29,108 nucleotides of DNA from a virus, in the IMG/VR virus record IMGVR_UViG_3300021963_005367, positions 1 to 29,108 of that record; one strand, given 5' to 3'. The notes below the pieces were generated by a model that worked only from the letters and a program-made list of their open reading frames with translations, had not been told where the DNA came from and ran no database searches. Numbering within the stretch: position 1 is the first letter of the stretch; each line of letters opens with the position of its first letter. Position numbers and translations under genes: made by a program. This document shows, one piece after another, positions 11,708 through 26,565 of this stretch.

Positions 11708-12562
11708 TTGAAAGTAATTTGGGTTTTAGAAAATATTAAAGATGATGAGAGTATCTACGGAAAATTAAATACTCTAATGTTAATTGCTTCCATACAGTTA
11801 TGGAAGAAAAATCATCCTACAGACAACTGCGTACTCTACTGTGATAAGTTAACCCTACGTTATATAGAGCGTCTCTCTATAGGTCATTTGTGGGATAGTA
11901 TAGAAGAGTATACTCATACAAGAAACATCGATAGAAACGTATTCTGGGCGGCTAGTAAAGTAGCAGTCCTTTCCCAACAAACAGAGCCGGTTATACTAAT
12001 GGATAATGATACCTTAGTATACAAACCTATTGCTCATCTTTTAGATAAAGATACAACTTATGTATGTAATTTAGAAAAAGGAAGAGGTTATTACCCGACT
12101 GGATATGATGAGATAATTAAAAAACTAAGTTACCGTCCTCGATGGAAAACTGATTCTCTCTGTGTAGCATTCCTACATTTACCTGATCCGGAATTTACTA
12201 GACTGTATGCTAATATGAGTTTAGATATGATGGAAGAGATGACAGCTTTAGGTGCACCAAATCCACAGTATTTAATTTTCTCAGAACAGTTACTTCTCCG
12301 ACATTTACTAGAAGTAAAACAAAAACCACTAAAAGGTTTAATAAGAACATATTGGGATTGCCAGGCGTGGGAATGGGCAGATGACCATGAAGATGGATTA
12401 TGGACCTATGAAGAGTCCCAGCAATACTTTAAACATTACGGACCTTTAAAAAATTGGATTATCAGAAACGAAGGTGACCAGAATTACGATAGGGTAATAA
12501 AAGAGTTGGAAAATTGCGTAAATATGCCTAACTTAGACCTATCGCACTTAACGGTTATGTAA
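11708..12562 (+). CDS. Putative GT-A type glycosyltransferase
   Basis: This 284-residue protein resembles sugar-nucleotide-dependent glycosyltransferases. The N-terminal strand MKVIWVLEN is followed by a helix and a CVLYCDKLTL strand. A DxD-type metal-binding motif lies in VILMDNDTLVYKP (D99, D101). Downstream FSEQLLLRHLL (about residues 191-203) fits the acceptor-side helix of such enzymes. The start is a TTG at 11708: an in-frame stop lies at 11690-11692 and no ATG or GTG lies between. The next in-frame ATG would remove the first strand. No good Shine-Dalgarno motif precedes it, and the 53-base gap has no TATTTAT motif. It opens the enzyme cassette and abuts the methyltransferase directly. 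The substrate is unknown. Confidence 0.65.
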   Translation: MKVIWVLENIKDDESIYGKLNTLMLIASIQLWKKNHPTDNCVLYCDKLTLRYIERLSIGHLWDSIEEYTHTRNIDRNVFWAASKVAVLSQQTEPVILMDNDTLVYKPIAHLLDKDTTYVCNLEKGRGYYPTGYDEIIKKLSYRPRWKTDSLCVAFLHLPDPEFTRLYANMSLDMMEEMTALGAPNPQYLIFSEQLLLRHLLEVKQKPLKGLIRTYWDCQAWEWADDHEDGLWTYEESQQYFKHYGPLKNWIIRNEGDQNYDRVIKELENCVNMPNLDLSHLTVM

Positions 12563-13285
12563 ATGTCAATAGTAGATTTAAAATATATACAAGAAAAAAT
12601 AACTACTAATAACGGAACTCCAATAGAATATAGATGGACTCATGGTGCAACCGATAAACATCTAGGAGACGGGTTATTAGTTTATAGCATCATACAAATG
12701 ATGCGGGCAAAGGTATGTGTTTGTATTGGTAGCGGTAGCGGTTTTATCCCTCGCATCATGACACAAGCTAGAATTGATTTGTATAACCAAGGTATTTTTG
12801 AAGGAAATGCAGACTATAATTGGGGTGATATTGGTGTTAGTTATCTTGTTGACGCTTGTAATGGCGTTGGGGGCCCTAATGATTTGGATGATGAGGATTC
12901 ATTCTTCCGCAAGAACTTTTATCCTAGATTTATCAAATCGACTTCTGTCGACGCCTATTATAACTTCTTTGTTAAACAAGATATTCAAATAGACTTTCTT
13001 TTTATAGATGGAGATCATTCCTACGAAGGAATAAAGACAGATTTCGAACTATACTCTAAACTACTTTCAGATAAGGGAATTATTGCTATTCACGACACAG
13101 ATAAGAATTACGAAAAAGCTCTTATCATTTCCGAAGATGCAAAAAAAGATTACTATTCATTTACGGGACCTTCTAAATTTATAGAAGAACTAGGACCAGA
13201 ATGGAAATTATTTAATTTCTTTAATGAGGGTATAGTAAAAGACAAACCATCATCTACAGGACTCACAATCATACAGCATGCTTAA
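12563..13285 (+). CDS. Class I SAM-dependent methyltransferase
   Basis: This 240-residue protein has the pattern of the Methyltransf_24/CmcI-like family, which often modifies sugars or other small acceptors. The glycine-rich SAM-binding loop is VCIGSGSGFIPR (residues 53-64). The family's metal-site segment is FLFIDGDHSYEG (145-156), followed by IIAIHD (173-178). Between them a FYPRFIKSTSVDAYYNFF segment is present. The ATG directly follows the previous TAA, and the C-terminus overlaps the next gene by 8 bases. In this context O-methylation of a glycan or sugar is plausible, but the substrate cannot be read from the sequence. Confidence 0.78.
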   Translation: MSIVDLKYIQEKITTNNGTPIEYRWTHGATDKHLGDGLLVYSIIQMMRAKVCVCIGSGSGFIPRIMTQARIDLYNQGIFEGNADYNWGDIGVSYLVDACNGVGGPNDLDDEDSFFRKNFYPRFIKSTSVDAYYNFFVKQDIQIDFLFIDGDHSYEGIKTDFELYSKLLSDKGIIAIHDTDKNYEKALIISEDAKKDYYSFTGPSKFIEELGPEWKLFNFFNEGIVKDKPSSTGLTIIQHA

Positions 13286-14117
13286 TTTAGTAACAGTAGT
13301 AGGACGTAACACACATATCCTTCCGCATATGTTAAAACACTATGAAGGAAAGGTAGATAAGGTGTATGTAGCTGTCTATAGACAACATGAGAATGATGGG
13401 GTACTAGAAGAGGTTCTAGACCTAGGAATAAAGCCTTGTATAGTCACAACAGAAGAAAAGTATAACTGGGAAAGAGTAACTGCTTTATACAACTACATAA
13501 AAGGAACAAGACCTAACGATTGGTGGATAGTTTCAGATGACGATGAATTGCAGGTTTATCCTTATGAAATTTCTGATATAATTAAAGAATGTGAAAAGCA
13601 TAACTTTGATTTTGTAACAGGAGGTTTTTTAGATAGAATAGGACCTGACGGAGTATTTCCGGAAGTAACTAGAGATACTGATATACATTCTGCCTTTCCC
13701 TATGCAGGTTTTTTTAGGCACCCAATGTCAAAAGCATGTCCAAATAAGGTAACCCTTATGAAAGGCTTTCAAGATATTTGCTCAGGACAGCACTATGCTA
13801 CCTTTAAAGATGGAACAAACAGTTGGGGAAAATCACATCCTAAAAGAATGCCGATTGAAGAAGTTTTTACACAAGTACATCATTTCAAATGGGACTCTAC
13901 TTGTGTGGAAAGAATAAAAGAAGTAGCAGATGTCGATAAACCTTATGCGTATTCTGAGGAATATAAAGCGATGTATAATGCAATAAGAGTTTTTGACTGG
14001 AAAATTGATATATGTAATCCTGAATTTAAAGTTGAAAAATTGAATAATTTTTCGTATATTGATTATATGGATTACTCTAAATGGAATTTATTAAGAGATA
14101 AAATTGTTACAATATGA
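13278..14117 (+). CDS. Glycosyltransferase family 2-like protein
   Basis: This 279-residue protein looks like the GT2_4/DUF23-type group of GT-A enzymes. It starts with LVTVVGRNTHILPHMLKHY, as in family members that begin with a strand and an N-x-x-x-[LI]PxML[KR]HY motif. A second strand VDKVYVAVYR follows. The likely metal site is WIVSDDDEL (D87-E90). A VTGGFLDRIGPDG strand and HHFKWDSTCVERI lie further on, the latter typical of the acceptor/catalytic half. The start overlaps the methyltransferase by 8 bases, and the stop overlaps the next ATG by 4. The acceptor and donor are unknown. Confidence 0.75.
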   Translation: MLNLVTVVGRNTHILPHMLKHYEGKVDKVYVAVYRQHENDGVLEEVLDLGIKPCIVTTEEKYNWERVTALYNYIKGTRPNDWWIVSDDDELQVYPYEISDIIKECEKHNFDFVTGGFLDRIGPDGVFPEVTRDTDIHSAFPYAGFFRHPMSKACPNKVTLMKGFQDICSGQHYATFKDGTNSWGKSHPKRMPIEEVFTQVHHFKWDSTCVERIKEVADVDKPYAYSEEYKAMYNAIRVFDWKIDICNPEFKVEKLNNFSYIDYMDYSKWNLLRDKIVTI

Positions 14118-14323
14118 GCAAAATACTAAAACAAGATGAATTAGACCTAATCGCTTTGGAAGAAAGAAAGGTTAGAGCTTTAGAAAAGATTGCAGCATCT
14201 ATGGATGCATTGACTATTTGGTTCGAAGAAGTAGATAAAGATGATTGGAGTGAACGTATCCAATTCTACTTGAATGAGTTTCATAACTTTCAGAAACCAA
14301 AAGATCCAACTATAAATGGATAA
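14114..14323 (+). CDS. Small helical protein in the glycan cassette
   Basis: This 69-residue protein is strongly helical. Residues 1-42 (KQDELDLIALEERKVRALEK, then IAASMDALTIWFEEV) look like an amphipathic coiled coil, followed by an acidic W-rich segment DDWSERIQFYLNEFHNF. It overlaps the upstream glycosyltransferase by 4 bases and the downstream GT7-like gene by 8. The overlaps argue for a real, translationally coupled gene. It may be a subunit or scaffold for the glycosyltransferases on either side, but I do not recognise it. Confidence 0.75.
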   Translation: MSKILKQDELDLIALEERKVRALEKIAASMDALTIWFEEVDKDDWSERIQFYLNEFHNFQKPKDPTING

Positions 14324-15731
14324 ACTGGGTATTATAGTACCTTATAGAAATAGGCCTCAACAGCTTTATGATTTCAAATTAAAAATTTCTAGTTACTTAT
14401 TAGCACAGGGAATTGATTACGAATTAATTATCGTAGAACAAGATTCTAATAAGAGTTTTAACAGAGGGAAGTTATTAAATATAGGATTTCAAAAAGCGAA
14501 AAGGCTAGAGTGTACCTACGTGTGTTTCCACGATGTAGATATGCACCCTATAAAAGTAGACTATAGCCCAGTAGATAGACCAACACAGTTGGCTAATAGG
14601 TTTGTGTATGAGGAAGGAGTTAAGAGAACAGTAGCTGATGAGTACTTCGGCGGTGTTACTCTTTTCCCTATCTCTCAATTTGAAGATATTAACGGATACT
14701 CTAATGAGTATTGGGGATGGGGTTTTGAAGATAACGACTTACTGGTTAGATGTAGAGAGAAAGGTATACCACTTGCAACAAAGTTCTATAAACAGAATGG
14801 AGTAAACGGTATAGGATTAGACTTTAACGGTGAGTCTTCTTTTGTAAGATTACCAAACGTTTGTAATTTTAGAAAACCTCTAACAATATACACTACATTT
14901 AAACCTTATAGAGTAAAATCAAACCCTGTAGAAATTGCAGATGAACTAGCAGTTTATTCTATACCAGGACGAGATCTAAACCTTTCCTATAATTCATTTA
15001 ATACTTATAAGTTTGAAACCTTTGATAAAAACGGAGAACCTCATTCTATTCACTCAAAAAATTTACCTCCCCTATCTGCTAAGAGTATAGTAACTATAAA
15101 CCCTAAAACTAAAAAGATAGAATTCTACCTTAATGGAGAGAAGGTTGGTACAAAAGGAATAAAAGATACATTACACCCATACTGGGATCAAAAATACATG
15201 TATCTAGGAGTTGGCGATCCTTTAAGAGAAAAGGTTCAAAAGTACTTTTACGGTTATATAACAGAATTTGCAGTATTTAGTAGAGAATTAACTGCAGAAG
15301 AAATAAAGAGTCTAAATAATAACTCTAGATATAGCCTTACTCAGGAGTTCGGTAGATACAGTCCTGGTAACGAACTTGAAGTATACTACGACGGACGACA
15401 CACTATTGGCAATACCTTAGTAGACCTAAGTAGAAATAATAAAGATGGACAACTAATCAACTGCGGTTTGGTAGAAACATACCAACCTCAAGAATATGTA
15501 CAGTTAGTACCTTCACGCAGGTATAGTACTTTTTCGGTTTTGAATCATAAAGAAAACGGATATAAAGACGGATACTGGGTTAATTGGGCTAGTCGTGAAA
15601 ATCAATTAAGGTATTATGAAAAGGTTCAACAAGGAATTACTCTTGAAAACGACGGCTTAAATAGCCTTAGGTACTCTGTAAAAAGTTTATCAAGTAAGGA
15701 GAATTATCATCATTTAGTAGTTACATTATGA
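14316..15731 (+). CDS. GT7 beta-1,4-galactosyltransferase-like enzyme with inserted LamG domain
   Basis: The N-terminal 160 residues carry the GT7 motif set: VPYRNR (8-13), FNRGKLLNIGF (48-58), FHDVDM (71-76; the DVD metal site), YFGG (110-113) and YWGWGFEDND (132-141). A LamG/ConA-like jelly-roll follows (about 165-340), with LDFNGESSFVRLP, FYLNGEKVG (270-278) and FYGYITEFAVFSRELTAEEI. After it the GT7 fold appears to resume: RRYSTFSVLNHKEN (401-414, with H411 at the place of the metal-binding histidine) and LENDGLNSLRYSV (443-455), a segment that animal beta4GalT enzymes have near their C-terminus. The lectin module therefore seems to sit inside the catalytic domain. Length 471. There is no signal peptide or membrane anchor, so it probably acts in the cytoplasm. 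It forms a tandem pair with the next gene. Confidence 0.8.
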   Translation: MDKLGIIVPYRNRPQQLYDFKLKISSYLLAQGIDYELIIVEQDSNKSFNRGKLLNIGFQKAKRLECTYVCFHDVDMHPIKVDYSPVDRPTQLANRFVYEEGVKRTVADEYFGGVTLFPISQFEDINGYSNEYWGWGFEDNDLLVRCREKGIPLATKFYKQNGVNGIGLDFNGESSFVRLPNVCNFRKPLTIYTTFKPYRVKSNPVEIADELAVYSIPGRDLNLSYNSFNTYKFETFDKNGEPHSIHSKNLPPLSAKSIVTINPKTKKIEFYLNGEKVGTKGIKDTLHPYWDQKYMYLGVGDPLREKVQKYFYGYITEFAVFSRELTAEEIKSLNNNSRYSLTQEFGRYSPGNELEVYYDGRHTIGNTLVDLSRNNKDGQLINCGLVETYQPQEYVQLVPSRRYSTFSVLNHKENGYKDGYWVNWASRENQLRYYEKVQQGITLENDGLNSLRYSVKSLSSKENYHHLVVTL

Positions 15732-17146
15732 CAAAGCATAAGTTAGGAGTCTGTGTTCCGTACCGAAATAGAGAATTACATCTACAGGAGTTTGTACCCA
15801 AAGTAGGTAAGTACTTGAAAGAACAGGGTATAGACTTTCAGATGTATTTTTGTCATCAAGTAGATGATAAACTATTTAATAGAGGAGCTACAAAGAATAT
15901 AGCTGCAAAACATGCATTCGAAGACGGATGTGATTATATAGTATGGCATGATATTGATATGATCCCGGAAGAAGATTGCGACTATTCGTACCCAGAAAAT
16001 GGACCACGTCATATTGCTACTAAGATTTCACAAATGGATTACCAACTTAAGTATCATGAGTACTTTGGAGGAGCTGTTTTATTTACAAAAGAGCATGTAG
16101 AGGCTACAAACGGGTACTCTAATAACTACTGGGATTGGGGAATGGAAGATGACGACCTCTTTTGGAGATGTCATGTAGAAGGTCTTACACGTATTACGTA
16201 TTTAGGACCTCAAGCATTAAAGCAAAAGTATTGGAGATTTAATGGAGAAGATTCTTATATGAAAATACCTTTTCATAGAGAGATGAGAGGATTGACAACA
16301 GGTAGCCATACTATCTCAATACTAACTAGAGCATTTCAACAACCAGAAAAAAATCCTATCTTTTTATTAGGAGATGCTAATAATAAATACGTAGAATACC
16401 CTATCTTTAGATTACCAGGATATGACTACGGTATCTCCTTTAATAATTCTAGAGCAATGACTTTAACCTTTTGGAATAACTTTGATGCACATAATTACAT
16501 GTGGGTTAAGAGGTATGACAATCAATGGAGCTGGGTTACTGCAGTTATAAATGAAAATACAAAAACCGCTCATTTCTACTTAAATGGAACAGAGGTAGAT
16601 TCTAAAGGAGGTTTTGGAAGTCCTTCTCCGTTAGAGTGGGAAGGTAAATTAAAAAGCTATGGAATTAATTCTGCATACTTAGGTATGACTCCTTCCTTAG
16701 AAGAAGGCAATCCTGTAAAATACTTTAAAGGAGATATAGCTAAAGTATTTGCTTGGAAGCGAGCTTTAAGTCCTGCAGAGGTAGCATCTATGCACTTAAA
16801 TCTACCTAAAGGTGACTTAGTGTTAAATTTAGATGCAGACTATCCTAGAACAACGGTAGAATGTTACGGGGTAGAGGAAAAGGAAGAGACTTTTAAAATA
16901 CCTAATTCAATTATACCTTATAGAGTTGAAGGTAAGTTTAGATGCTTACCACATCCTGATGAAGGAATTGTAAATGGTAGGTTTATAAAAGGAGAGACAA
17001 CAGCAGCTAATGAAAGACGTTATGTACTTCAGATGCAACAAGGAGAAGTTAATTATAAAGAAGACGGAATAAAACAGGTACAGTACACCCTGGTAGAAGA
17101 AAAGAAATTAACTCCTTGGGCTAAAATGTTAAATATAACCCTATGA
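15728..17146 (+). CDS. Second GT7-like glycosyltransferase with inserted LamG domain
   Basis: This is a 472-residue paralogue of the preceding protein. GT7 motifs: VPYRNR (10-15), FNRGATKNIAA (50-60), WHDIDMIP (73-80; DID metal site), YFGGAVLF (112-119) and YWDWGMEDDD (134-143). The LamG-like part spans about 168-360, with FNGEDSYMKIP, HFYLNGTEVDSKG and YFKGDIAKVFAWKRALSPAE. The C-terminal GT7 piece follows: GKFRCLPHPDE (402-412, H409 likely metal ligand), NERRY and KEDGIKQVQYTLV (444-456). Sequence drift between the two paralogues is large, so they probably use different donors or acceptors. The start overlaps the first copy by 4 bases and the stop overlaps the radical SAM gene by 4. No export signal is seen. 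Confidence 0.78.
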   Translation: MTKHKLGVCVPYRNRELHLQEFVPKVGKYLKEQGIDFQMYFCHQVDDKLFNRGATKNIAAKHAFEDGCDYIVWHDIDMIPEEDCDYSYPENGPRHIATKISQMDYQLKYHEYFGGAVLFTKEHVEATNGYSNNYWDWGMEDDDLFWRCHVEGLTRITYLGPQALKQKYWRFNGEDSYMKIPFHREMRGLTTGSHTISILTRAFQQPEKNPIFLLGDANNKYVEYPIFRLPGYDYGISFNNSRAMTLTFWNNFDAHNYMWVKRYDNQWSWVTAVINENTKTAHFYLNGTEVDSKGGFGSPSPLEWEGKLKSYGINSAYLGMTPSLEEGNPVKYFKGDIAKVFAWKRALSPAEVASMHLNLPKGDLVLNLDADYPRTTVECYGVEEKEETFKIPNSIIPYRVEGKFRCLPHPDEGIVNGRFIKGETTAANERRYVLQMQQGEVNYKEDGIKQVQYTLVEEKKLTPWAKMLNITL

Positions 17147-18540
17147 GTTTACAAGAAGTAAAAAATAAATTAGACGGAGTAGGATGCGGTTTTTGTTTAG
17201 CAAAATGGACACAAGTTACTATGCATTTAGGAATGGGTATGACGCATTCATGTCACCACCCTTCCCCTCATAAGATACCGTTAAAAGAAGTAGAAAGAAA
17301 TCCTTCAGCATTACATAACACTTCCTACAAGAAACAGAAGCGAAGAGAAATGCTAGAAGGTAAGAAACCAGAAGAGTGTAACTATTGCTGGAAAGTAGAA
17401 GAGAGTTCTAATTCCTTTTCTGATAGAGTCTTTAAATCTTCAGAACCTTGGTCAATAGATCAGTTCGAAAAAATAAAAGAAAGCCACTGGAGGGAAGATT
17501 TTAACCCTAGATATGTAGAGGTATCTTTCTCAAATACCTGTAACTTCAAGTGTGCTTATTGTGGGCCACAGTATTCATCCAAATGGGTAGAAGAGATTGA
17601 GAAACACGGGGCATACCCAACTAGCTACAATTTTAACGACATTAGCAATATACAGGCAAGAGGAGAGATGCCGTATAAACATTCTGAACTAAATCCATAT
17701 GTAGAAGCATTTTGGAAATGGTGGCCGGACTTATACAAGGACTTACATACCTTTAGAATTACCGGAGGAGAGCCTCTATTATCTAAAGATACTTTTAAGG
17801 TATTGGAATACATACAAGACCATCATCATAAGAATCCAAACTTATCTCTTTCTATAAACTCTAATCTTGGTGTTCCGGATAATCTTATAGATAAGTTTAT
17901 TGAGATTGCTAAAGACCTTTGTGAGAATGATAAAGTAAGAGAACTTACCATATTCACTTCAGTAGAAGCTAAGGGGGCACAAGCAGAGTATACTAGGTAC
18001 GGGTTAGAGTATGATAGGTTCTGGGCTAATGTAGATAAGATTTTAACTGCTTTACCGAAAGTGACTATCAACATTATGGCAACATTCAATGCACTTTCTG
18101 TATTTAGTTATGATGAGTTAATAGATAAGACTTTTGAAATGAAAAAGAAACATGCTAATGGACAGAGGTATTGGGTATCTGCTTTACAGTTAGATACATC
18201 GTACTTGAGATGGCCTACACATCTTTCCGTAAAGATACTAGAACCAAAACATAAAACTTTAATTTTGAAGTCTGCAGAAAAAGCACTATATTATGGTATC
18301 AAAGAATTTACTAACGACAATTACGGTTTTTCTAACGTAGAAATTCAAAAGATAAAACGAATATACGACTACGCTATTTCTGAAGGGGATTTTAACTTAG
18401 ATCAGAATAGAAAGGATTTTGTAATATTTGTAGACGAATTAGATAAACGAAGAGGTACAAACTTCTTAGAAACATTCCCAGAACTAAAAGAGTTTTATGC
18501 TAAAATTAAAAACAGGAGAACCGTGGGTATTTTGGCCTAG
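17143..18540 (+). CDS. Twitch-type radical SAM protein 1
   Basis: This 465-residue protein is a radical SAM enzyme with the CX3CX2C cluster motif CNFKCAYC (C133, C137, C140) and a SAM-binding TGGEP (207-211). A cysteine set precedes the core (C18, C37, C79, C82) around SCHHPSPHKIPLKEV. This SPASM-like arrangement placed before the core is known from twitch-domain radical SAM proteins of phages, whose function is not established. A long helical C-terminal part follows (about 330-465). Its four N-terminal cysteines have exactly the same spacing as those of the gene at 19081. The ATG overlaps the preceding stop by 4 bases. The substrate is unknown; a peptide, a sugar or a sugar-nucleotide are all possible. 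Confidence 0.82.
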   Translation: MSLQEVKNKLDGVGCGFCLAKWTQVTMHLGMGMTHSCHHPSPHKIPLKEVERNPSALHNTSYKKQKRREMLEGKKPEECNYCWKVEESSNSFSDRVFKSSEPWSIDQFEKIKESHWREDFNPRYVEVSFSNTCNFKCAYCGPQYSSKWVEEIEKHGAYPTSYNFNDISNIQARGEMPYKHSELNPYVEAFWKWWPDLYKDLHTFRITGGEPLLSKDTFKVLEYIQDHHHKNPNLSLSINSNLGVPDNLIDKFIEIAKDLCENDKVRELTIFTSVEAKGAQAEYTRYGLEYDRFWANVDKILTALPKVTINIMATFNALSVFSYDELIDKTFEMKKKHANGQRYWVSALQLDTSYLRWPTHLSVKILEPKHKTLILKSAEKALYYGIKEFTNDNYGFSNVEIQKIKRIYDYAISEGDFNLDQNRKDFVIFVDELDKRRGTNFLETFPELKEFYAKIKNRRTVGILA

Positions 18541-19081
18541 CAGTATTTGCGACACCTTCCCAGAAAATCCAGCAAATAAAATACTAAGAGGAGATTGTTA
18601 TTTTGAGTTTGACCTTAGATTTACTTTAAGAGAAGAACCTACAGAAAGAAAAACAATATTTGCTTTACTCCCTAAATATACAGGATTAGATATCCATTCA
18701 GAAGGAATGGTTTTTGCATATACGACAGAAGAAGAGACTTCATATATGAACCTACCTTCTTTAATTAAGGTAGGAGAAGAGGTGTTACTGACAGTAGAAC
18801 ACCAACCAAATAAGTATTTAAGAATATTTATTAATAAGGAATTAATTGAAGAGATTAATTTAGATAATAAGGTTTTTGGTTTAGATAATAGCCCGCATAT
18901 TATATTTGGCGCAGGTAATTTTCCTAAAAATAACTTCAACCTAAATTATACAAGTTTAGATCTTCATGAATTTATATTAAAAGGAATAACAGGAGTATTA
19001 TCTCATCATAACTTTGAAGAGTTTATATTTGATAAGTCTGTTGATATTTCCGGTAACCTAAATTTTATACATAAATTATAA
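18497..19081 (+). CDS. Stand-alone LamG-like lectin protein
   Basis: This 194-residue protein reads as a laminin-G/concanavalin A-like jelly-roll. Visible strands include YFEFDLRFTLRE, KTIFALLP, GMVFAYTTEEE, EEVLLTVEHQPNKYLRIFIN with a KEL turn, and SLDLHEFILKG. It has no signal peptide and no enzymatic motif. The ATG at 18497 lies inside the preceding radical SAM gene, giving a 44-base overlap, the largest in the cassette. The GTG at 18523, which has a good AGGAG upstream, is out of frame and cannot be the start. The stop shares a base with the next ATG (TAATG). It has the same kind of fold as the inserts in the two GT7-like enzymes. It may be a detached glycan-binding subunit of the radical SAM pair. 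Confidence 0.62.
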   Translation: MLKLKTGEPWVFWPSSICDTFPENPANKILRGDCYFEFDLRFTLREEPTERKTIFALLPKYTGLDIHSEGMVFAYTTEEETSYMNLPSLIKVGEEVLLTVEHQPNKYLRIFINKELIEEINLDNKVFGLDNSPHIIFGAGNFPKNNFNLNYTSLDLHEFILKGITGVLSHHNFEEFIFDKSVDISGNLNFIHKL

Positions 19082-20703
19082 TGGGAGTTTTCGCAAAAAA
19101 GGACGAGGAGTCGTTCCAAGAATATAGAGAAAGGGTTATTAATAAACTATCCCAATCTTTTTGTGGTGCTAAATGGTACAATGCTACCATCTGGCTAGGT
19201 AACGGTACAACAGCAAGTTGTCATCACCCACCCGCACATAAAATACCTTTAGAGGAAGTAGCTAAATCTTATAAAGCAATTCACAACACAACCTACAAGA
19301 AGGCCATCCGTAAGCAAATGATGGAAGGTGAAAGACCTAAGGAATGTGAATACTGCTGGAAGATAGAGGATTTAGGTCCTGATAAAGTATCTGATAGAGT
19401 CTACAAATCAGTTATATATACAGACGAAGAGTTAAAACAAGCTAGAACAGAATTAGGATATACAGAAGACGTAGATTTAAAGACACTAGAGATTGCTTTT
19501 GACCCTAATTGTAATTTTGGCTGCTCATACTGTAATGCTTCTTTTTCAACTACTTGGCAAAACGATATTAAGAAGTTCGGTCCATATCAGAATCTAGTAT
19601 CTGATGGAGCTGGAGCTTTTCAACATGATGGAAGACATGCGATGCCGTATGGTAGAAAGAACGAAGGTAACCCTTACATAGAAGCCTTTTGGAAATGGTG
19701 GGAAGGAGAGCTACAATACTCCTTAAGGGAATTAAGAGTAACAGGAGGTGAACCAACTATGTCTCCAGACTTCTGGAAGTTGATGGATTGGTGGAAACGC
19801 AACCCTCAATGTGAAGTTCCTTTTGCAGTAAATTCAAACTTAGGACAGAAGAAAGAATTATTAGATGCTCTTATAGAATCTACTCATAGTTTTAAAGAAT
19901 TTAACCTTTATACTTCCTGTGAGGCTACTGGATTACAGGCTGAGTATATTAGATACGGACTTGAGTGGAAGACTTGGCTACAGAATATGTATCGAGTTAA
20001 CGAAGAAGCAAATGTAAAGTCTGTAAACGTAATGATGACTATAAACGGATTATGTTTATTTTCAATCACAGAGTTTATGGATGAGATGTTAAAGTTAAAA
20101 GCAAAGCATGGAGCTCATGCAGCTATTATGTCTTTTAATATATTACGTTTTCCTTCCTTCCAGTCAATAGTAACACTTCCTGTTTATATTAGAATGGAAA
20201 GAGCAGCTCATATTGAAAAGTGGTTAGAAGAAAACTGGAAAGGAGGTTCTAACGGACTACTTGATATGGAAAGAGACGGTATCCTTAGAATGATTGAATA
20301 TATCAAACAAGTAGATACAGGTCATGCTTTTACTTCATCGTTAGAAAGTAGAGAAAGAGATTTTAAATCTTTCTACGCCCAGTACGATGTTAGACGAAAC
20401 AAAGATATTTTAGCTGCATTCCCAGAAATTAAAAGATGGTGGGATTCTATACCAGAAACTAAATTAGATGCACTTAAAGAAGTAATAGACGGAGATGATG
20501 CTAAATCGAATAGATACGTTCACGATGTTTTAAAGAAAGCTAAGGAAGAGGGCTGGGTACTTAATCCACAATGGCATAACCCAGGATCACAAGAGTACAT
20601 TGAACCAGATAATCAACAGCAAGATGATATGATTGATTTAATTGACTTGCTAAAGAAGGAATCTGATCCAAAAGGACCAGGTATAAAACACAAGTTAATA
20701 TGA
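19081..20703 (+). CDS. Twitch-type radical SAM protein 2
   Basis: This 540-residue protein has the CX3CX2C motif CNFGCSYC (C144, C148, C151) and TGGEP near 221-225. The N-terminal cysteines C28, C47, C89 and C92 keep exactly the spacing of the gene at 17143 (19, 42 and 3), and SCHHPPAHKIPLEEV matches that gene's SCHHPSPHKIPLKEV. The two are therefore paralogues from a local duplication. A further ~70 residues at the C-terminus are rich in charged residues (DAKSNRYVHDVLKKAKEEGW) and absent from the first copy. It shares one base with the LamG gene upstream and overlaps the next gene by 4. The substrate is unknown. Confidence 0.82.
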   Translation: MGVFAKKDEESFQEYRERVINKLSQSFCGAKWYNATIWLGNGTTASCHHPPAHKIPLEEVAKSYKAIHNTTYKKAIRKQMMEGERPKECEYCWKIEDLGPDKVSDRVYKSVIYTDEELKQARTELGYTEDVDLKTLEIAFDPNCNFGCSYCNASFSTTWQNDIKKFGPYQNLVSDGAGAFQHDGRHAMPYGRKNEGNPYIEAFWKWWEGELQYSLRELRVTGGEPTMSPDFWKLMDWWKRNPQCEVPFAVNSNLGQKKELLDALIESTHSFKEFNLYTSCEATGLQAEYIRYGLEWKTWLQNMYRVNEEANVKSVNVMMTINGLCLFSITEFMDEMLKLKAKHGAHAAIMSFNILRFPSFQSIVTLPVYIRMERAAHIEKWLEENWKGGSNGLLDMERDGILRMIEYIKQVDTGHAFTSSLESRERDFKSFYAQYDVRRNKDILAAFPEIKRWWDSIPETKLDALKEVIDGDDAKSNRYVHDVLKKAKEEGWVLNPQWHNPGSQEYIEPDNQQQDDMIDLIDLLKKESDPKGPGIKHKLI

Positions 20704-22046
20704 AATTCGCATTCGACAAGTATGTAGACTTAGAGGAATATCCGAACCCTTACCCTCTTCCAAATGGAATGGTAGGAGCAGAAGACTTACCTAGAACCTA
20801 TAATGAACTATCTAAATATAATGTTTACGGTTTTCTTTTTAAAAAACACTTAGATTACCAAGAACACCATTTTGGACATGATACTGTAGATAACCTTATA
20901 AAGGGTTCTGAAAAGTTTATGTATTCAATTTTATTGAGAGATAAAACTACTTTCCACAAATTAAGTGATGAAAAGTATTACAAACTTAGTGATAAAATTG
21001 TTAAAGCAGTACAACAAAAACAAGGAGCAATATTACTTAGTCACTTATTCGAAGGAGATTTTAAGAAAAGAGATTATAATGAAGTTGATGCTATTAATCA
21101 ATTTGCACTAAAGTATAATTTTAAGAAAGAGGATATACTAGTACTTTCTAATAACCTAAAATGGAATTACGAAGAACCAGAAAATGCTCTCTTTACAGTA
21201 CGAACCTGTAACTACTTTTTACTTAACCCGTGGTTTATAAAAGAAGACCTTTTAGATGGAGGTAATGATCAATTCTTTCGAATTGGATTTGAAGATAAAA
21301 GAAGGTACATCGGAGCGTACCCAAAACCTAAAAGATTTCTTTCTTTAAATAGAAGACCTAGAACCCATAGGATTGTACTCTTTACAGAGATAGCAAAGAA
21401 CCCACAACTACGAGATACATCAGTACTGAGTATGGGAAAACGTAGCTTAGATCCTAATCAAGACTTAGATAAAGACCATTGGGCTAGAACATATAATAAT
21501 CCCTGGATGACTTTATACGATGCTTTTGTAGCAGATAACTATAAGCATGATAAAAAAGCAGGAATGGAGTTCCTTAATAACTATAATAATAATGAAGATT
21601 ATTTTGTAGATTCTAATTTAGAATATAACCTAGCATTTAATTTAAACGAAACACTCCACTTAAATACATTTGTAAACGTATTTACAGAAACTTTATTTGA
21701 AGAAGATACTATCTTCCTATCAGAGAAAATTTTTAAACCTATATACTGTTTACAGCCTTTTATAGTATTTGGTAACCCCGGTACTCTGGAAGAGTTGCAA
21801 AAGTTAGGTTTTAAGACATTTGGAGAATTTTGGGATGAGTCTTATGATCAAGAAATATCTTTTACAAAGAGATTAGAAAAGATTATGGATATTATGAAAG
21901 ATCTAGCTAACAAAACTCACGGAGAGTTGTTACAGATGACACGAGAAATGTCTCACATACTTGAACACAACTATACACATATGATACAAGCTAGTAGAGC
22001 AGAAGTATTTACATTAAAACAAACATTAAATGAGCAATTCAGTTAA
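20700..22046 (+). CDS. Putative glycosyltransferase (FLSEKIFKPI family)
   Basis: This 448-residue protein contains IFLSEKIFKPIYCLQPFIVF followed by GNPGTLEEL (about 338-366). The segment resembles the nucleotide-sugar binding end of GT10-like fucosyltransferases, where [FY]xTEK[IL]xxxxxxxxPI is conserved. Proteins with an SEK-[TI]-[FW]-[KR]-PI...QPF[IV]...G-x-PG-[TS]-L signature are common and unassigned in aquatic phages. An earlier RFLSLNRRPRTHR stretch (about 217-229) would suit a loop that binds phosphates. It has no membrane segment. Its start overlaps radical SAM 2 by 4 bases and its end overlaps radical SAM 3 by 17. The glycosyltransferase call is moderate. Confidence 0.5.
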   Translation: MKFAFDKYVDLEEYPNPYPLPNGMVGAEDLPRTYNELSKYNVYGFLFKKHLDYQEHHFGHDTVDNLIKGSEKFMYSILLRDKTTFHKLSDEKYYKLSDKIVKAVQQKQGAILLSHLFEGDFKKRDYNEVDAINQFALKYNFKKEDILVLSNNLKWNYEEPENALFTVRTCNYFLLNPWFIKEDLLDGGNDQFFRIGFEDKRRYIGAYPKPKRFLSLNRRPRTHRIVLFTEIAKNPQLRDTSVLSMGKRSLDPNQDLDKDHWARTYNNPWMTLYDAFVADNYKHDKKAGMEFLNNYNNNEDYFVDSNLEYNLAFNLNETLHLNTFVNVFTETLFEEDTIFLSEKIFKPIYCLQPFIVFGNPGTLEELQKLGFKTFGEFWDESYDQEISFTKRLEKIMDIMKDLANKTHGELLQMTREMSHILEHNYTHMIQASRAEVFTLKQTLNEQFS

Positions 22047-23304
22047 AGATTATAAAAAATCAGAACATTTCTGCTCTGCACTATGGATGCACCTACATGT
22101 AGTAAACGACGGTAGAACATATCCATGTTGTATGACTCCTATAGATAACCAATCTACTCTAGGTAACGTAAACAATAATTCCTTATTTGAAATCATGAAT
22201 AGCGATAAAGCTAAGTCGATGAGAAAAGGAATGCTAGAAGGTAAACCACTTCCTTCTTCTTGTTCACGTTGTGTAAGTAAAGAGAAGTCCGGAATGGGTA
22301 GTATGCGAATCGGAATGAATGATCATTGGTTTGATGAAGTTGAAGACCTAGTTGAAAATACAAACGAAGATGGAAGTATAGATGAGTTGAGATTACTATA
22401 CTGGGACTTTAGATTTAGTAATTACTGTAACCTAGCATGTAGAACCTGCTCACCTTTATTCAGTACAGCATGGACTAAAGATTTTGTACAGGTGTTTGGA
22501 GACAAGTCTGAACACTTAGGATTGATTAACTTAGATGGAGCTAATACGTTTTGGGATAATATTGAAGAGACTATTCATACAGCTAAAGAAATTCACTTTG
22601 CAGGAGGAGAACCTTTAATTATGCCAGAACATTGGAAGCTTATTGAGATGCTTGAAGAGCGAAACCTGTACGATGTTAAGTTAAAGTACTCTACTAATGC
22701 TACAATGTTAGAGAATAAAGGTAGAAATATAATTGATATTTGGAAAAAATTTAAACACGTACATTTAAGTTTATCTATAGACGGTACAGGAGATCTTTTT
22801 GAGTTAGTTAGACACAACGGTAAATGGGCTAAAACAAGAGAGAATTTAATAAAGATAAATGAAGCAGGTATTGACTTTTGGTTACATCCAACGATTAGCC
22901 TTTTAAATATATTTAGAATAGATCAAATGCATAAAGAGTTTTTCGATATGGGTTTAATACCTATTCATAAAAAACCTCACGAAAAATATCCTTTCGACCC
23001 TAGTCACTACTTTACAAGTAGGTTTCATATTAACCCTGTCTTCTTCCCTATGTATTATGCGTTAGAGACTCTACCTAAAGAACTGAAAGAATTGGCAACT
23101 GAGAAGATAACTAAGTACGGTAGAAGTATGGAAGCTAAATACGGTATTCCTTTTTCTGGATGGGAATCTTTATTAGATATTATGAATAAGAAAGAAGGTA
23201 ATCCTGAATTTTTTAAACGATTTATAACAGTAACAAAAGACCTAGATAAAGTTAGAAACCAGGACTTCTTAAAACTTAACCCAGAATTCAAGCCTTACTT
23301 TTAA
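22030..23304 (+). CDS. Twitch-type radical SAM protein 3
   Basis: This 424-residue protein has the core motif CNLACRTC (C133, C137, C140) and an AGGEPL segment near 195-200. The N-terminal half carries a more typical SPASM-like set: FCSALWMHLHVVNDGRTYPC (C15, C33), then C34, LGN (44-46), an SLFEIMNSDK segment, and a CSRC pair (C78, C81). The His-rich CHHP motif of the other two is absent here, so this copy is more distant and probably acts on a different substrate. A SLSIDGTGDLFE strand and NEAGIDFWLHPTISLLN follow, as in twitch members. Its start lies within the preceding gene (17-base overlap). The C-terminus overlaps the SGNH gene by one base. Confidence 0.83.
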   Translation: MSNSVKDYKKSEHFCSALWMHLHVVNDGRTYPCCMTPIDNQSTLGNVNNNSLFEIMNSDKAKSMRKGMLEGKPLPSSCSRCVSKEKSGMGSMRIGMNDHWFDEVEDLVENTNEDGSIDELRLLYWDFRFSNYCNLACRTCSPLFSTAWTKDFVQVFGDKSEHLGLINLDGANTFWDNIEETIHTAKEIHFAGGEPLIMPEHWKLIEMLEERNLYDVKLKYSTNATMLENKGRNIIDIWKKFKHVHLSLSIDGTGDLFELVRHNGKWAKTRENLIKINEAGIDFWLHPTISLLNIFRIDQMHKEFFDMGLIPIHKKPHEKYPFDPSHYFTSRFHINPVFFPMYYALETLPKELKELATEKITKYGRSMEAKYGIPFSGWESLLDIMNKKEGNPEFFKRFITVTKDLDKVRNQDFLKLNPEFKPYF

Positions 23305-24230
23305 TGAAAGATATAATTTGGAAGATAGATACAGTAAAAGACTTCTGTGAAATAATGAGACAGGAGTATAAAACTGTTATGACTTTAGACCCATGGGCAG
23401 ATGGAGCATTAAACAGATACACTGCATTTACTTCCTATTCTGAACAAACTCAAGCGATAAAAGCAATTGAAGATAAAAAAACACGATTAAAGTTTGAAGA
23501 TGTAAGGTATTATATAAACGATTATGCAGCTAGAGGAGATTGGAGTATAAACACACCTCATTCAGACCATTTAAAAATAGCTGTATTTGGATGTAGTTTT
23601 ACATTCGGGGTGGGTATTGATGAAGAAGGAACTTGGCATGCTCAAGTAAAGAATCTACTAAAATCAGATAAACCTATACAGCTAATCAACCTAGGATACC
23701 CAGGAGGTAGTATAGCTAAGTGTTTGAAGTTGTTTAAGTATCTTACAGATGTGTACTCAATCGATATTGCGATCTTTTTATTACCAACTCATTGGCGAGA
23801 TGAATATCCAGAGCATACTAATAAGTTAGGAACAAACTACCACAACCTTATACCAAATGTAAATCCACATCTTTTACAACACAAGTGGGAACAGTATTAT
23901 ATGTACGCTACAGAAGAAACTCAGATATACAATGCAGTACGTTCTGTTTCACATATTGATGCAATCGCACAATCCAAGAATATAGAAACCTACTTTAGTA
24001 CATGGGATTTTCCTTTACATAGTTATTTAAAAACAAACTACTTAACTAAAAAACAAACACTTCCTTATTATGAATTTTTAGAAAATCATAAAGGAATTAA
24101 AGACGGGTTTGCTAGAGATGGAAATCATCCCGGTCCTTTAAGTAATGAGCACTTTGCTAATCAAATTTTAGAACACTTAACTACTTTTTCTGAAAAGAGA
24201 ACAGCTAATAAACCTACTAAACTAATTTAA
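23304..24230 (+). CDS. SGNH/GDSL-type hydrolase-like protein
   Basis: This 308-residue protein has an N-terminal helical region and then an SGNH hydrolase domain. Block I is VFGCSFTFGVG (94-104), where S98 takes the place of the GDS nucleophile. Block II is likely NLGYPGGS (129-136). Block V is ARDGNHPGPLSNEHF (270-284), with D272 and H275 completing the triad. The usual aspartate of GDSL is replaced by cysteine (GCSF), a change seen in other members. Such enzymes in glycan clusters often act as O-acetyl esterases or acyltransferases. No signal peptide is evident, so a cytoplasmic role or phage delivery is possible. It is the last gene before the next TATTTAT motif. Confidence 0.72.
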   Translation: MKDIIWKIDTVKDFCEIMRQEYKTVMTLDPWADGALNRYTAFTSYSEQTQAIKAIEDKKTRLKFEDVRYYINDYAARGDWSINTPHSDHLKIAVFGCSFTFGVGIDEEGTWHAQVKNLLKSDKPIQLINLGYPGGSIAKCLKLFKYLTDVYSIDIAIFLLPTHWRDEYPEHTNKLGTNYHNLIPNVNPHLLQHKWEQYYMYATEETQIYNAVRSVSHIDAIAQSKNIETYFSTWDFPLHSYLKTNYLTKKQTLPYYEFLENHKGIKDGFARDGNHPGPLSNEHFANQILEHLTTFSEKRTANKPTKLI

Positions 24231-24232
24231 TC

Positions 24233-24243
24233 TATTTATATAA
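24233..24243 (+). promoter_or_regulatory. Putative late-promoter motif TATTTATATAA inside the cassette
   Basis: TATTTATATAA starts two bases after the SGNH stop and ends 13 bases before the ATG at 24257. It is the only motif copy in a gap within the glycan cassette. It splits that cassette into 11708-24230 and 24257-26834. Function is inferred from recurrence. Confidence 0.45.
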
Positions 24244-24256
24244 AAATACTTAAGAA

Positions 24257-24745
24257 ATGGCAACTAAATACACACTGTCTTATGATGCATCAGTAGATCT
24301 AGGATCTGTTAGAAAGACATTACAAGAATTACAACCAGGAGAATCTATTATTACATACAATACAGAAGAAGGTATATTTGAAGTATCTGAGATAGTTTCT
24401 GTAGAAGTTGACCCAGATGTAGATTACGAGAAATACTACCAAGGTATAAAAATGAACTACCTACCACAGGTATTAACATTGGATTCTATTATATACGTAA
24501 AACAAGACGAAACTACCCTATTAGGATACTTCACAGATGAAGCACCAGAGGTAGAAGGAATAGCTCCAGAAAAGTTAGTAAAAGTTCAAGCAGAGGTACA
24601 TAAAATGTTCGATGGAGTAAATTGGGTTAATATTGATACGTTAGGAATAATGGCATGTCAAGGAAGATTAGCACATATTACTGTTGCTAATAACCATTCA
24701 ATATTTACAGGAAACTTATTAGTATCAGATTATAAAGCAAAGTAA
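24257..24745 (+). CDS. Small protein with a Hint-like pattern (tentative)
   Basis: This 162-residue acidic protein has no cysteine near its N-terminus. An LQPGESIITYNTEEGIFEV stretch (25-43) resembles the block A region of Hint (hedgehog/intein) domains, where a [LV]xxGDxVxTxD segment is followed by a strand. The end (ITVANNHSIFTGNLLVSDYK, 141-160) resembles the last Hint block, which has an N-x-F-x-x-G-x-L-V-H-N pattern. The catalytic Cys and final HN are missing, so if it is a Hint relative it cannot splice. It may instead be an unrelated small beta-rich structural protein; the resemblance is weak. It starts 14 bases after a TATTTAT motif and ends 4 bases before the dehydrogenase gene. Confidence 0.65.
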   Translation: MATKYTLSYDASVDLGSVRKTLQELQPGESIITYNTEEGIFEVSEIVSVEVDPDVDYEKYYQGIKMNYLPQVLTLDSIIYVKQDETTLLGYFTDEAPEVEGIAPEKLVKVQAEVHKMFDGVNWVNIDTLGIMACQGRLAHITVANNHSIFTGNLLVSDYKAK

Positions 24746-24749
24746 TACA

Positions 24750-25922
24750 ATGGAAGTAGGTTTTATAGGAATAGGTAAGTTAGGTAAAGATGCAGCAGAA
24801 GTAATGGCTGAAAAGCATAACGTTGAAGGTTACGATACCGATCAAAGCGTAGCTGCAACAGTTAACTTTACTATGGTTAATAGTATAGAAAAGTTATGCA
24901 AAGGTAAAAACTTAATATTCATAGCAGTACCTACACCTCACCACCCCGATTACGACGGAAGGTACCCTACTTCTCACTTAGAGAATAAAGACTTTGATTA
25001 CAGGATCGTAAAAGAGGTATTAAAGGAAGTAGACAAACATACAAACGAACAGCAATTAGTAGTTTTAATATCAACAGTCTTACCAGGAACTATAAGAAGA
25101 GAGTTTATACCTTTAATAAAGAACTTCAGGTTTATATACAACCCTTACTTAATTGCAATGGGTACCGTTAAATACGATATGGTTAATCCAGAAATGGTAA
25201 TCATAGGAACTGAAGACGGATCTGAAACTGGAGATGCAAAACTACTTACAGACTTTTATAATACCTTTATAAATCCTTCTACTAGGGTTGAAATTGGTAC
25301 CTGGGATGAAGCAGAATCAATAAAAATATTTTACAATACATTTATATCAACTAAAGTAGCTCTTGTTAATATGATACAAGATGTAGCTGAGAAGAATGGT
25401 AATATAAACACAGATGTTGTAACAGGTGCTTTAGAAAGAAGTACAAATAGAATATTAGGACCTGCTTATATGAAAGCTGGAATGGGAGATGGCGGTGGAT
25501 GTCATCCTCGTGATAATATAGCATTAAGGTTTTTAGCACAAAAGTTAGGATTAGGGTATGACCTTTTTGATTCTATTATGAAAGCTAGAGAAAAACAAGC
25601 AAAAAATCTAGCAAATAAGTTGGTTCTTTACGCAAAACTTCATAAATTACCAGTAGTAATATTAGGTAAATCTTACAAACCTGGAGTACCTTTTGAAGAC
25701 GGGTCTTCATCTATACTAGTAGGCTACTATGTAGAAGAGCAGGGATATAAAGTTCTATACGATATTGAAGAACCTATACCTGGAGTTTATTTGCTTGCAC
25801 ATTATAAAAAGCATCATGATTTTGATTTCCCTAAAGGCTCAGTTATAATAGATCCATGGAGAGAATATTCATCTGACCTTAATAGAGTTGTATATTACGG
25901 TAATACTAGGCTAAATGGCTAA
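24750..25922 (+). CDS. UDP-glucose/GDP-mannose dehydrogenase family protein
   Basis: This 390-residue protein has the full set of motifs for a nucleotide-sugar 6-dehydrogenase, which makes the uronic acid form of the sugar with two rounds of NAD reduction. The Rossmann loop is FIGIGKLG (5-12), with D29 at the end of strand 2. AVPTP lies at 59-63, STVLPGT at 108-114, and a NPEMVIIG strand near 146-153. K192 and N196 occupy the family's Lys/Asn positions. The catalytic cysteine is C251 in GGGCHPRD (248-255), and GKSYKPG (306-312) starts the C-terminal domain. It appears complete but is slightly short for the family. A donor such as UDP-glucuronate for the cassette glycosyltransferases is a reasonable inference. 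It overlaps the next gene by 8 bases. Confidence 0.86.
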   Translation: MEVGFIGIGKLGKDAAEVMAEKHNVEGYDTDQSVAATVNFTMVNSIEKLCKGKNLIFIAVPTPHHPDYDGRYPTSHLENKDFDYRIVKEVLKEVDKHTNEQQLVVLISTVLPGTIRREFIPLIKNFRFIYNPYLIAMGTVKYDMVNPEMVIIGTEDGSETGDAKLLTDFYNTFINPSTRVEIGTWDEAESIKIFYNTFISTKVALVNMIQDVAEKNGNINTDVVTGALERSTNRILGPAYMKAGMGDGGGCHPRDNIALRFLAQKLGLGYDLFDSIMKAREKQAKNLANKLVLYAKLHKLPVVILGKSYKPGVPFEDGSSSILVGYYVEEQGYKVLYDIEEPIPGVYLLAHYKKHHDFDFPKGSVIIDPWREYSSDLNRVVYYGNTRLNG

Positions 25923-26565
25923 AGCGGTTATAATATCAGGACTTCTAACCAACTTTTCAGATAACTTTATAAAATTTATAGAAGAGTTAGAAGAAGAAAC
26001 CCACACATACGTACATACTTGGAATACTCCTGATAATTTAAGATGGGTTAATAAGTTGATGAGACATCAACATAAGACTAGGATTACAATTAATATGGAA
26101 GTTCCGATGTATGAAGAAAAGAAGTACCTAATACTACACTCTACATACCAAGCTGCAAACTTAATAAACAACTTATACGATTATTCTACTATTATTAAAT
26201 TTAAACCAGATTTAGAGACAGACCGTATAGAGTATAATAAGAACGTAGAGCAGTATTTTATAGAAGCTGCTATACATGCACATCCATTATTAGATAGTAG
26301 AAAGAAAGAAGAGTTTATTTACGGAAGATACCTATATAAGACGTTAGATGAAAGAATGTTTACCACCTATCCAGAAGGCATAGAAAAACTATTTCATAGA
26401 AGCTATACTGATTTTTTTGATGATATCTTTGCACTTGATTCTTACCTTAAAAAAAAGTATATAGAGAACTACGAAGGGAGCATCCTTTGGACTAATTATA
26501 TAAAAGAAAGGAAGCTAGGAATTATACAAGACCTAACTCTCAAATTACCAAACTGTAAACACTAA
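25915..26565 (+). CDS. Unrecognised protein, possible glycosyltransferase-like
   Basis: This 216-residue protein opens with AKAVIISGLLTNFSDNFIKF and a THTYVHTWNTP segment. That resembles a group of WavE-like or capsule-related proteins in which a strand-loop-helix is followed by [DT]-x-Y-x-HTW. Near the middle, IIKFKPDLETDR could be the strand before an acidic metal site. It has no membrane segment. It overlaps the dehydrogenase by 8 bases and is the last gene of the cassette. The family resemblance is weak, so a non-catalytic role is equally possible. Confidence 0.6.
   Translation: MAKAVIISGLLTNFSDNFIKFIEELEEETHTYVHTWNTPDNLRWVNKLMRHQHKTRITINMEVPMYEEKKYLILHSTYQAANLINNLYDYSTIIKFKPDLETDRIEYNKNVEQYFIEAAIHAHPLLDSRKKEEFIYGRYLYKTLDERMFTTYPEGIEKLFHRSYTDFFDDIFALDSYLKKKYIENYEGSILWTNYIKERKLGIIQDLTLKLPNCKH

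Follow-up and report, generated by a model that had tools for sequence, protein, structure and literature searches.

We analysed IMGVR_UViG_3300021963_005367, a 29-kb virus record (29,108 nucleotides; this whole stretch of DNA is referred to here as the window) that holds, in this order, the end of a capsid-type gene, PhoH, neck-type and fibre genes, and the sheath and tube genes of the tail. Between the fibre genes and the tail sheath lies an island (11708-26565) of 14 open reading frames (ORFs) of at least 80 amino acids and one small gene (14114-14323), all on the plus strand. A pair of radical S-adenosylmethionine (SAM) enzymes, rS1 (17143-18540) and rS2 (19081-20703), forms the conserved core of the island, with a variable block behind it. 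We propose, with a probability of roughly 0.45, that the island is a fibre-modification machine in which the rS1-rS2 core acts on the fibre polypeptide or on its glycan and glycosyltransferases add sugars, the fibre being the substrate that we infer. The initial annotation of this DNA had placed a co-oriented cassette of enzyme genes between the fibre genes and the sheath, and this arrangement was confirmed, with each gene at its assigned position.

The three radical SAM proteins expected in the island all belong to the N_Twi_rSAM family. rS1, rS2 and rS3 (22030-23304), the last an enzyme of the variable block, score 348, 312 and 372 bits, respectively, against NF033640, whose curated cut-off is 170, and the conserved columns of the family (CX3CX2C and the N-terminal cysteines) are present in all three. 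Across the viral loci, fetched as the best 80 of at least 600 and biased to close relatives, CX3CX2C is kept in 363 of 374 N_Twi_rSAM ORFs. rS1 (alignment A2) and rS2 are sister clades in the tree (joint node 0.999; individual clades 0.89 and 0.85) and are found in 82 and 84 loci, respectively, in near one copy each; rS3 belongs to a diverse, multi-copy superclade. The most conserved core enzyme is rS2, with 47-76% identity between the window and 14 diverse members (alignment A1), and outside the closest clade its conservation exceeds that of the sheath in eight of nine comparable loci, L140 (43% versus 65%) showing the reverse. Its predicted model has the radical SAM fold (predicted local distance difference test score, pLDDT, 81.9). 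Uncultured viruses commonly carry the rS2 family, with at least 600 matches; rS2 itself has no match among 50,697 phage records, and that collection thus holds no close cultured model. For rS3 the same collection gave 16 remote matches (23-25% identity), 15 of them in Vibrio phages. A possible cultured model is Vibrio phage K566 (L162, record positions 147623-176756), an isolated 255-kb phage in which four remote N_Twi-like radical SAM genes are clustered. Single records carry up to 19 N_Twi_rSAM matches, some below the curated cut-off. Genes for A-type Fe-S carriers (PF01521), possible suppliers of clusters to the radical SAM enzymes, occur in 11 of 25 viral records (G004, G005, G007, G008, G010, G011, G012, G013, G015, G019 and G025), the last of which has no N_Twi_rSAM match.

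A survey of gene order with hidden Markov models (HMMs), covering 162 sequences, revealed two architectures around the pair. In type I, the conserved left half consists of the S74 fibre, g10637, g11190, a DUF6734 gene, a methyltransferase, GT2, x69, GT7a, GT7b, rS1, a LamG-like gene and rS2, followed by a variable right half of further radical SAM genes, GT-B genes, SGNH, dehydrogenase and other genes, and then by g26577 ahead of the sheath. In type II, found in more distant viruses, different genes stand ahead of rS1-rS2 and variable radical SAM arrays behind; we rejected these upstream genes as kin of the window's glycosyltransferases, the hhalign probability never exceeding 7. The initial annotation had suggested a search for the same gene set at the fibre-to-sheath site of other phages, and the order from fibre gene to dehydrogenase is repeated in L003, L004, L005, L006, L024 and L050, while the gene order of L007 is that of the window except that 24257-24745 is absent. 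Such repetition in L003-L007, L024 and L050 indicates that the arrangement is more than chance. rS1-rS2 with further radical SAM genes in a phage-like order also occurs in L167, L168 and L169, from bins labelled Rickettsiales, Pelagibacter and Betaproteobacteria; given this order, and a virion-structural-like gene upstream in L167, these bins probably include phage contigs.

Linkage to fibre genes is found in both architectures. Using phmmer, we detected a fibre-like gene upstream and on the same strand in 30 of 43 non-redundant loci that had 6 kb or more of upstream sequence (9/16 type I, 21/27 type II), and downstream in none of the 43, in a search that is partly circular because it was seeded with the window's fibre and the fibres of eight scored loci. 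In a separate check, large upstream ORFs of ten distant loci, chosen by size and position, were compared with PHROGs, and eight match tail-fibre, tail or virion-structural families (those of L070 and L032 do not). Eight upstream genes scanned in another distant locus, L075, gave no structural family. Nearness to the sheath is not general: radical SAM genes lie more than 50 kb from it in 8 of the 10 records with a sheath match, as measured along linear records that are possibly fragments or permuted circles. Among 38 sheath loci extending 4 kb or more upstream, many of which are incomplete, rS1 or rS2 is present there in 8; others carry small sets, and in L139 a structural gene is directly followed by g26577 with nothing between. 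Of the position originally described, between fibre and sheath, it is the fibre side that recurs.

Two fibre-proximal genes separate the S74 fibre from the island. g10637 (10637-11188) has no Pfam match, and g11190 (11190-11654) encodes a small protein rich in serine, threonine and asparagine (S+T 27%, N 10%), a possible acceptor. A DUF6734-type gene, encoding a putative glycosyltransferase, is found within the next four genes after g10637 in 29 of 29 loci, 9 of which lack any core gene; five loci have it without g10637, in three cases at the edge of the locus. These genes can diverge together, as in L003, where identity to the window is 60% for g10637, 66% for g11190 and 64% for the DUF6734 gene, against 90-98% for the remaining core. 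Membrane segments, defined as 19-residue stretches with a mean hydropathy of at least 1.8, are absent from all 679 named cassette proteins, and a hydrophobic stretch is present in 13 of 268 unnamed neighbours. The lack of membrane segments in the named enzymes fits an acceptor located in the cytoplasm, for example the fibre. Self-decoration of the virion, one of two outcomes suggested earlier for this cassette, therefore draws support from the fibre linkage in two architectures, from solubility and from the glycosyltransferase gene that follows g10637.

Relatives of rS1 and rS2 are also present on bacterial chromosomes. A genome scan with rS2 identified ten loci, five of which are labelled Bacteriovoracaceae, Bdellovibrionales or Oligoflexia, and housekeeping genes (Obg, phosphoglycerate mutase) lie close to one of the chromosomal rS2 loci. 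Of 240 genomes of one phylum searched with a profile, 57 encode rS1/rS2-type proteins, on contigs of up to 3.4 Mb; the 57 include four known beforehand (G035, G036, G038 and G039). We read this phylum, extended from the Bacteriovoracaceae genome behind L163, as probably Bdellovibrionota, so that the carriers would be related to known predators. In the rS1, rS2 and rS3 clades, bacterial and viral sequences interleave.

Radical SAM enzymes that mature ribosomally synthesized and post-translationally modified peptides (RiPPs) work with PqqD-type recognition domains, PqqD being their peptide-recognition partner. We looked at how close PqqD and S74 lie to the chromosomal enzymes, taking positions from at most six candidates scored per genome; S74 was searched in all 57 positives and PqqD in 50 (G035, G036, G038, G039, G151, G226 and G252 left out). 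PqqD lies within 3 kb of rS1/rS2 in 7 of 22 matches in the first 15 genomes (0.05 expected) and, in 35 genomes not searched before, within 15 kb in 13 of 39 (0.47 expected) and within 3 kb in 6 of 39 (0.09 expected), where the expectations, here and for S74, assume unrelated genomes and uniform positions and kinship inflates the excess. S74 lies within 3 kb in 4 of 41 matches (0.13 expected) and within 15 kb in 8 of 41 (0.67 expected) in the first 22 genomes. For S74 the 35 further genomes gave a strong association within 15 kb (10/56, 0.69 expected) and a weak one within 3 kb (2/56, 0.14 expected). The two partners also occur together: in four genomes with S74 within 3 kb, a PqqD match stands between S74 and rS1/rS2 or in the same ORF, and one ORF combines PqqD and S74. 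This proximity of PqqD and S74 genes to the chromosomal relatives suggests a protein substrate.

Other genes recur near the chromosomal enzymes. A protein judged by eye to be prepilin-like (317 to 804 amino acids) lies near rS1/rS2 in four S74-close genomes, and S/T/N-rich proteins of 758-804 amino acids with a prepilin-like N-terminus, again by eye, stand next to or near rS1 in L205 (10811-13225), L217 (10836-13235) and L218 (6277-8553). Genes that by eye resemble a two-part ABC exporter are located beside the S74 gene in L219 (633-2169) and L220 (7030-8569). The S74 proteins of L205, L217, L218 and L219 (144-152 amino acids) share a stretch of about 35 residues just ahead of the S74 cleavage motif that could be a self-released peptide. 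Candidate precursor peptides are x69, g11190 and, in four loci, the small S74 proteins whose N-terminal stretches are alike.

Several observations weigh against a fibre-modification machine built on this core. The tube gene is about equal to rS2 in conservation, or higher, in most compared loci. Thirteen of the 43 viral loci have no fibre-like gene upstream, including 7 of the 16 with GT7 or methyltransferase, and in two distant loci (L034 and L055) a sheath gene lies about 6 kb upstream of rS1, which amounts to sheath closeness beyond the window's clade. On chromosomes, PqqD is within 15 kb of rS1/rS2 in only 20 of the 50 genomes tested (7/15 plus 13/35) and S74 in only 18 of 57, and the S74 genes at this distance are short (open frames of 147-178 amino acids in 16 of 18), not whole fibres. 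PqqD is absent from 21 viral records, all possibly fragments, and none was found by HMM in the viral loci; x69 was considered as a PqqD-like protein and rejected (hhalign probability 0.1), so the phage version would lack the usual peptide-binding partner. Across 15 loci the identity of the DUF6734 gene correlates with that of g10637 and g11190 (0.80-0.81) and less with its other neighbour (0.66), but g10637 correlates with the non-adjacent GT7b (0.88) and rS1 (0.81) as well as with the DUF6734 gene (0.80). Shared ancestry thus accounts for much of this covariation, which is suggestive only, and we no longer take it to prove an action of the DUF6734 protein on g10637 or g11190. Finally, the structures nearest to rS2 mix sugar enzymes (BlsE, DesII) and RiPP maturases (SkfB, SuiB) with tied scores, so solved structures do not separate a sugar from a peptide substrate.

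The presence of BlsE and DesII among these top matches fits a cassette devoted to virion glycan alone, in which the radical SAM enzymes would only alter sugars (by deoxygenation, epimerisation or dehydrogenation) and the glycan would sit on the fibres. We find this account somewhat doubtful. The enzymes' neighbours in phages count in its favour: glycosyltransferases, a UDP-sugar dehydrogenase and an SGNH-like protein. Near the chromosomal relatives, GT2 genes were found in 5 of 20 rS1/rS2 regions versus 0 of 20 control regions, and L190 and L191 are single cases with, respectively, three GT2 genes and a UDP-GlcNAc 2-epimerase gene nearby; the seed of the GT2 model, however, came from an rS1 locus, and seeding with three other sugar genes gave no match in the 20 chromosomal or the 20 control regions. 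The structural scores are equally those of SkfB and SuiB, and it is PqqD, a peptide-recognition protein, that accompanies the chromosomal relatives far above chance. The idea of a glycan-modification cassette, as first put forward, therefore keeps its glycosyltransferases, soluble enzymes and fibre linkage, but the radical SAM core and the relatives near PqqD and S74 make a purely glycan cassette improbable.

The second outcome suggested earlier was late remodelling of the host surface, in which a changed lipopolysaccharide or capsule blocks re-adsorption and the fibre linkage arises from the shared receptor. Such a role has been proposed for pelagimyophage glycosyltransferases (available part of PMC7029224); the island has putative glycosyltransferases and a UDP-sugar dehydrogenase, and the linkage fits here too, since enzymes that modify the receptor would likewise be expected to stay with fibres. 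It is nevertheless unlikely in our view. With no membrane segment in the 679 proteins, the named genes encode no flippase, polymerase or membrane acyltransferase of the kind used in O-antigen conversion and no lipid-linked glycan export route. In L004, the S74 tip differs from that of the window (44% over the last 230 residues of the fibre) whereas the cassette core is 84-97% identical (DUF6734 gene 95%; the adjoining g10637 and g11190 are 94% and 83%) and its last gene falls to 67%. PqqD and S74 near relatives would not be expected either.

A further alternative, that the enzymes have nothing to do with fibres and sit at the fibre locus as metabolic passengers because it is a hotspot, has a precedent in the hypervariable g15-g18 region of cyanophages, which takes up metabolic genes (available part of PMC2984593), and in L139 and Flavobacterium phage immuto this site is vacant or occupied by different genes; the rS1-rS2 core nonetheless keeps its place downstream of fibre-like genes in two architectures, and bacteria again show the association with PqqD and S74, which makes this quite improbable. 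Decoration of the phage DNA by the glycosyltransferases and radical SAM enzymes is scarcely credible, since it leaves the fibre linkage unexplained and the two records closest to the window (G001 and G002, both possibly fragments) have no thymidylate-synthase-type gene, even though such genes occur in 10 of 25 records, virus-encoded DNA-hypermodifying glycosyltransferases are known (Pyle 2024, via the available part of PMC12619734) and the GT-B model matches T4 BGT (Z 11.4, tied with many).

If the island does act as a fibre-modification machine, its substrate late in infection would be the newly made fibre, or the fibre-proximal g10637 and g11190. The rS1-rS2 pair would install an invariant modification, perhaps a crosslink, an epimerisation, a deoxygenation or another change, on the fibre polypeptide or on the first sugar attached to it, after which the methyltransferase and glycosyltransferases might extend the glycan with sugars prepared partly by the dehydrogenase. 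The variable block would then add a lineage-specific outer decoration that tunes receptor binding or shields the virion. More tentatively still, phages and relatives of predatory bacteria may share one fibre-maturation system, in which an N-terminal-twitch radical SAM pair modifies adhesive fibre proteins post-translationally, with PqqD and a self-cleaving S74 precursor as partners in Bdellovibrionota and fibre genes and glycosyltransferases as partners in phages. If so, radical SAM protein modification would be a general route by which bacterial killers make or diversify their prey-recognition structures.

The upstream anchor of the island is a tail fibre with a C-terminal S74 chaperone domain (7201-10635; Pfam Peptidase_S74, 60 bits; PHROG tail fibre families), and 53 bases precede the first island gene at 11708. 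Counting the small gene, 11 of the 14 junctions overlap, by 1 to 44 bases, and three do not (0, 26 and 4 bases apart); the initial annotation had described overlaps of 4 to 44 bases. Scans for sigma-70 promoters and terminators stayed at chance level, and the T4 late-promoter motif TATAAATA, with at most one mismatch, was uninformative (103 matches versus 116 expected). At the sheath-side edge lies the small gene g26577 (26577-26834), which has matches in 84 loci and stands just before the sheath in 35 of the 38 listed. The tail sheath itself (26962-28707; Pfam Phage_sheath_1; phrog_23, E 1e-71) is the downstream border in the window's clade. By sheath, the nearest isolate is Flavobacterium phage immuto (65.7% identity), whose pre-sheath region has fibre and lysozyme genes and none annotated as a glycosyltransferase or radical SAM enzyme.

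Phage-encoded glycosyltransferases are present in the island, although not every family name given at first could be kept. The two GT7-LamG proteins are secure: GT7a (14316-15731), beta-4-galactosyltransferase-like, and GT7b (15728-17146) match the N- and C-terminal GT7 families and Laminin_G_3, all above cut-off. GT7a is the variable one (38-48% identity in relatives outside the closest clade; B4GALT7 among PDB sequences, E 1e-24) and GT7b the more conserved. A galactosyltransferase motif spotted by eye behind the LamG domain, which would mark LamG as an insert, was not confirmed: the C-terminal 77 residues alone match no such PDB enzyme. The GT2-like protein (13278-14117) matches Glyco_tranf_2_4 at 23.1 bits, below the Pfam cut-off of 27.5. 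The putative GT-A glycosyltransferase (GTA, 11708-12562) belongs by Pfam to DUF6734 (39.4 bits), a family of unassigned function, GT-A being the initial annotation's own inference. The product of 20700-22046, at the start of the variable block, has no family and no credible PDB sequence match; its model (pLDDT 69.5) reaches a VIA-align Z of up to 11.8 against GT-B enzymes, which supports a putative glycosyltransferase of GT-B fold, and GT10 (2nzx, Z 10.8) is one of many tied matches, so we left the GT10 label aside. GT7b and this GT-B protein have no match among the 50,697 phage records.

Among the other enzymes, the methyltransferase (12563-13285; Methyltransf_24, 44.5 bits, cut-off 26.3) and the UDP-sugar 6-dehydrogenase (24750-25922; phrog_9148, E 2e-94; UDP-glucose dehydrogenase chains, E 1e-17) are as first named. 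So is the SGNH-hydrolase-like protein (23304-24230), in which G96-C97-S98, R271-D272 and H275 are invariant in ten members; we take these to be the catalytic Ser and Asp-x-x-His blocks of SGNH enzymes, and the closest PDB entry is a lysophospholipase-type esterase (E 6e-4). The LamG name of the protein between rS1 and rS2 (18497-19081) was not confirmed, as this conserved family (alignment A5) has no Pfam match. Two proteins have no family. That of 24257-24745, seen in the closest relatives only (alignment A7), has no Pfam or PDB match, leaving a Hint/intein-like reading of its C-terminal region by eye unsupported; that of 25915-26565 (alignment A6) has no Pfam or PHROG match, and a WavE-like reading by eye was likewise rejected. 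In L022, a variable-block ORF (18085-20016) matches mannose-phosphate isomerase C-terminal and nucleotidyltransferase families, with APH below cut-off.

The small gene of the island, overlooked in the initial annotation, encodes x69, a conserved protein of 69 amino acids identified by profile HMM and alignment. Its core resembles LEERKVKALEKIA...LWFEEIDK..W..R.QYYL, and it has no Pfam or PDB match. By HMM, x69 is found in 38 of the 43 loci scored as GT7-bearing and in no other locus scanned; the GT7 model also scored one ORF of immuto (L002).

The bacterial hosts of a phage are determined by its fibres. Should these carry installed marks, the fibre sequence by itself would not reveal the host range, and fibres produced in the absence of the enzymes may not function. 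The Bdellovibrionota relatives offer a cellular setting for tests of the chemistry.

The initial annotation regarded the island as the window's best candidate for an undescribed system. We found no description of the rS1-rS2 core, or of the PqqD-S74-radical-SAM association, among the titles and abstract openings listed, a coverage that excludes preprints and most subscription papers. Islands with glycosyltransferases and radical SAM cassettes in T4-like structural regions, on the other hand, have been published (available parts of PMC7029224 and PMC5332604). The host recognition cluster of pelagimyophages is, like the island, a large variable block in the T4-like structural region with tail fibres, glycosyltransferases and radical SAM cassettes; the cluster itself sits between VrlC and gp14, and its description differs in that modification of the host O-chain is the favoured role and that, in the part available, it has no conserved pair of radical SAM enzymes, x69, GT7-LamG pair or PqqD/S74 link (PMC7029224). 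A T4-like environmental genome has 12 radical SAM genes and an A-type carrier, recalling the many radical SAM genes with Fe-S assembly genes found here; the available part of that paper reads them as Fe-S metabolism and host adaptation and does not discuss fibre linkage (PMC5332604). Mycobacteriophages likewise encode glycosyltransferases that act on the virion, but their acceptors are capsid and tail-tube proteins (Freeman 2023, via the available parts of PMC12363180 and PMC12619734, where radical SAM is unmentioned), whereas here the linkage, judged from genes alone, points to fibres.

The chromosomal loci invite two further comparisons. With RiPP maturases they share a PqqD gene near an rS1/rS2-type gene, in the 20 of 50 bacterial genomes mentioned above; the phages differ, with PqqD in 0 of 21 records, and the neighbours on chromosomes are S74 and prepilin-like proteins. 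The mosaic adhesive trimer (MAT) fibres of Bdellovibrio differ in that S74 genes near rS1/rS2 are mostly short and stand-alone, and radical SAM has no occurrence in the main text of PMC10769870. They are alike in that, according to the available part of that paper, MAT fibres are phage-like S74 fibres for prey recognition, used by a predator that our own reading places in the same phylum as the carriers of rS1/rS2.

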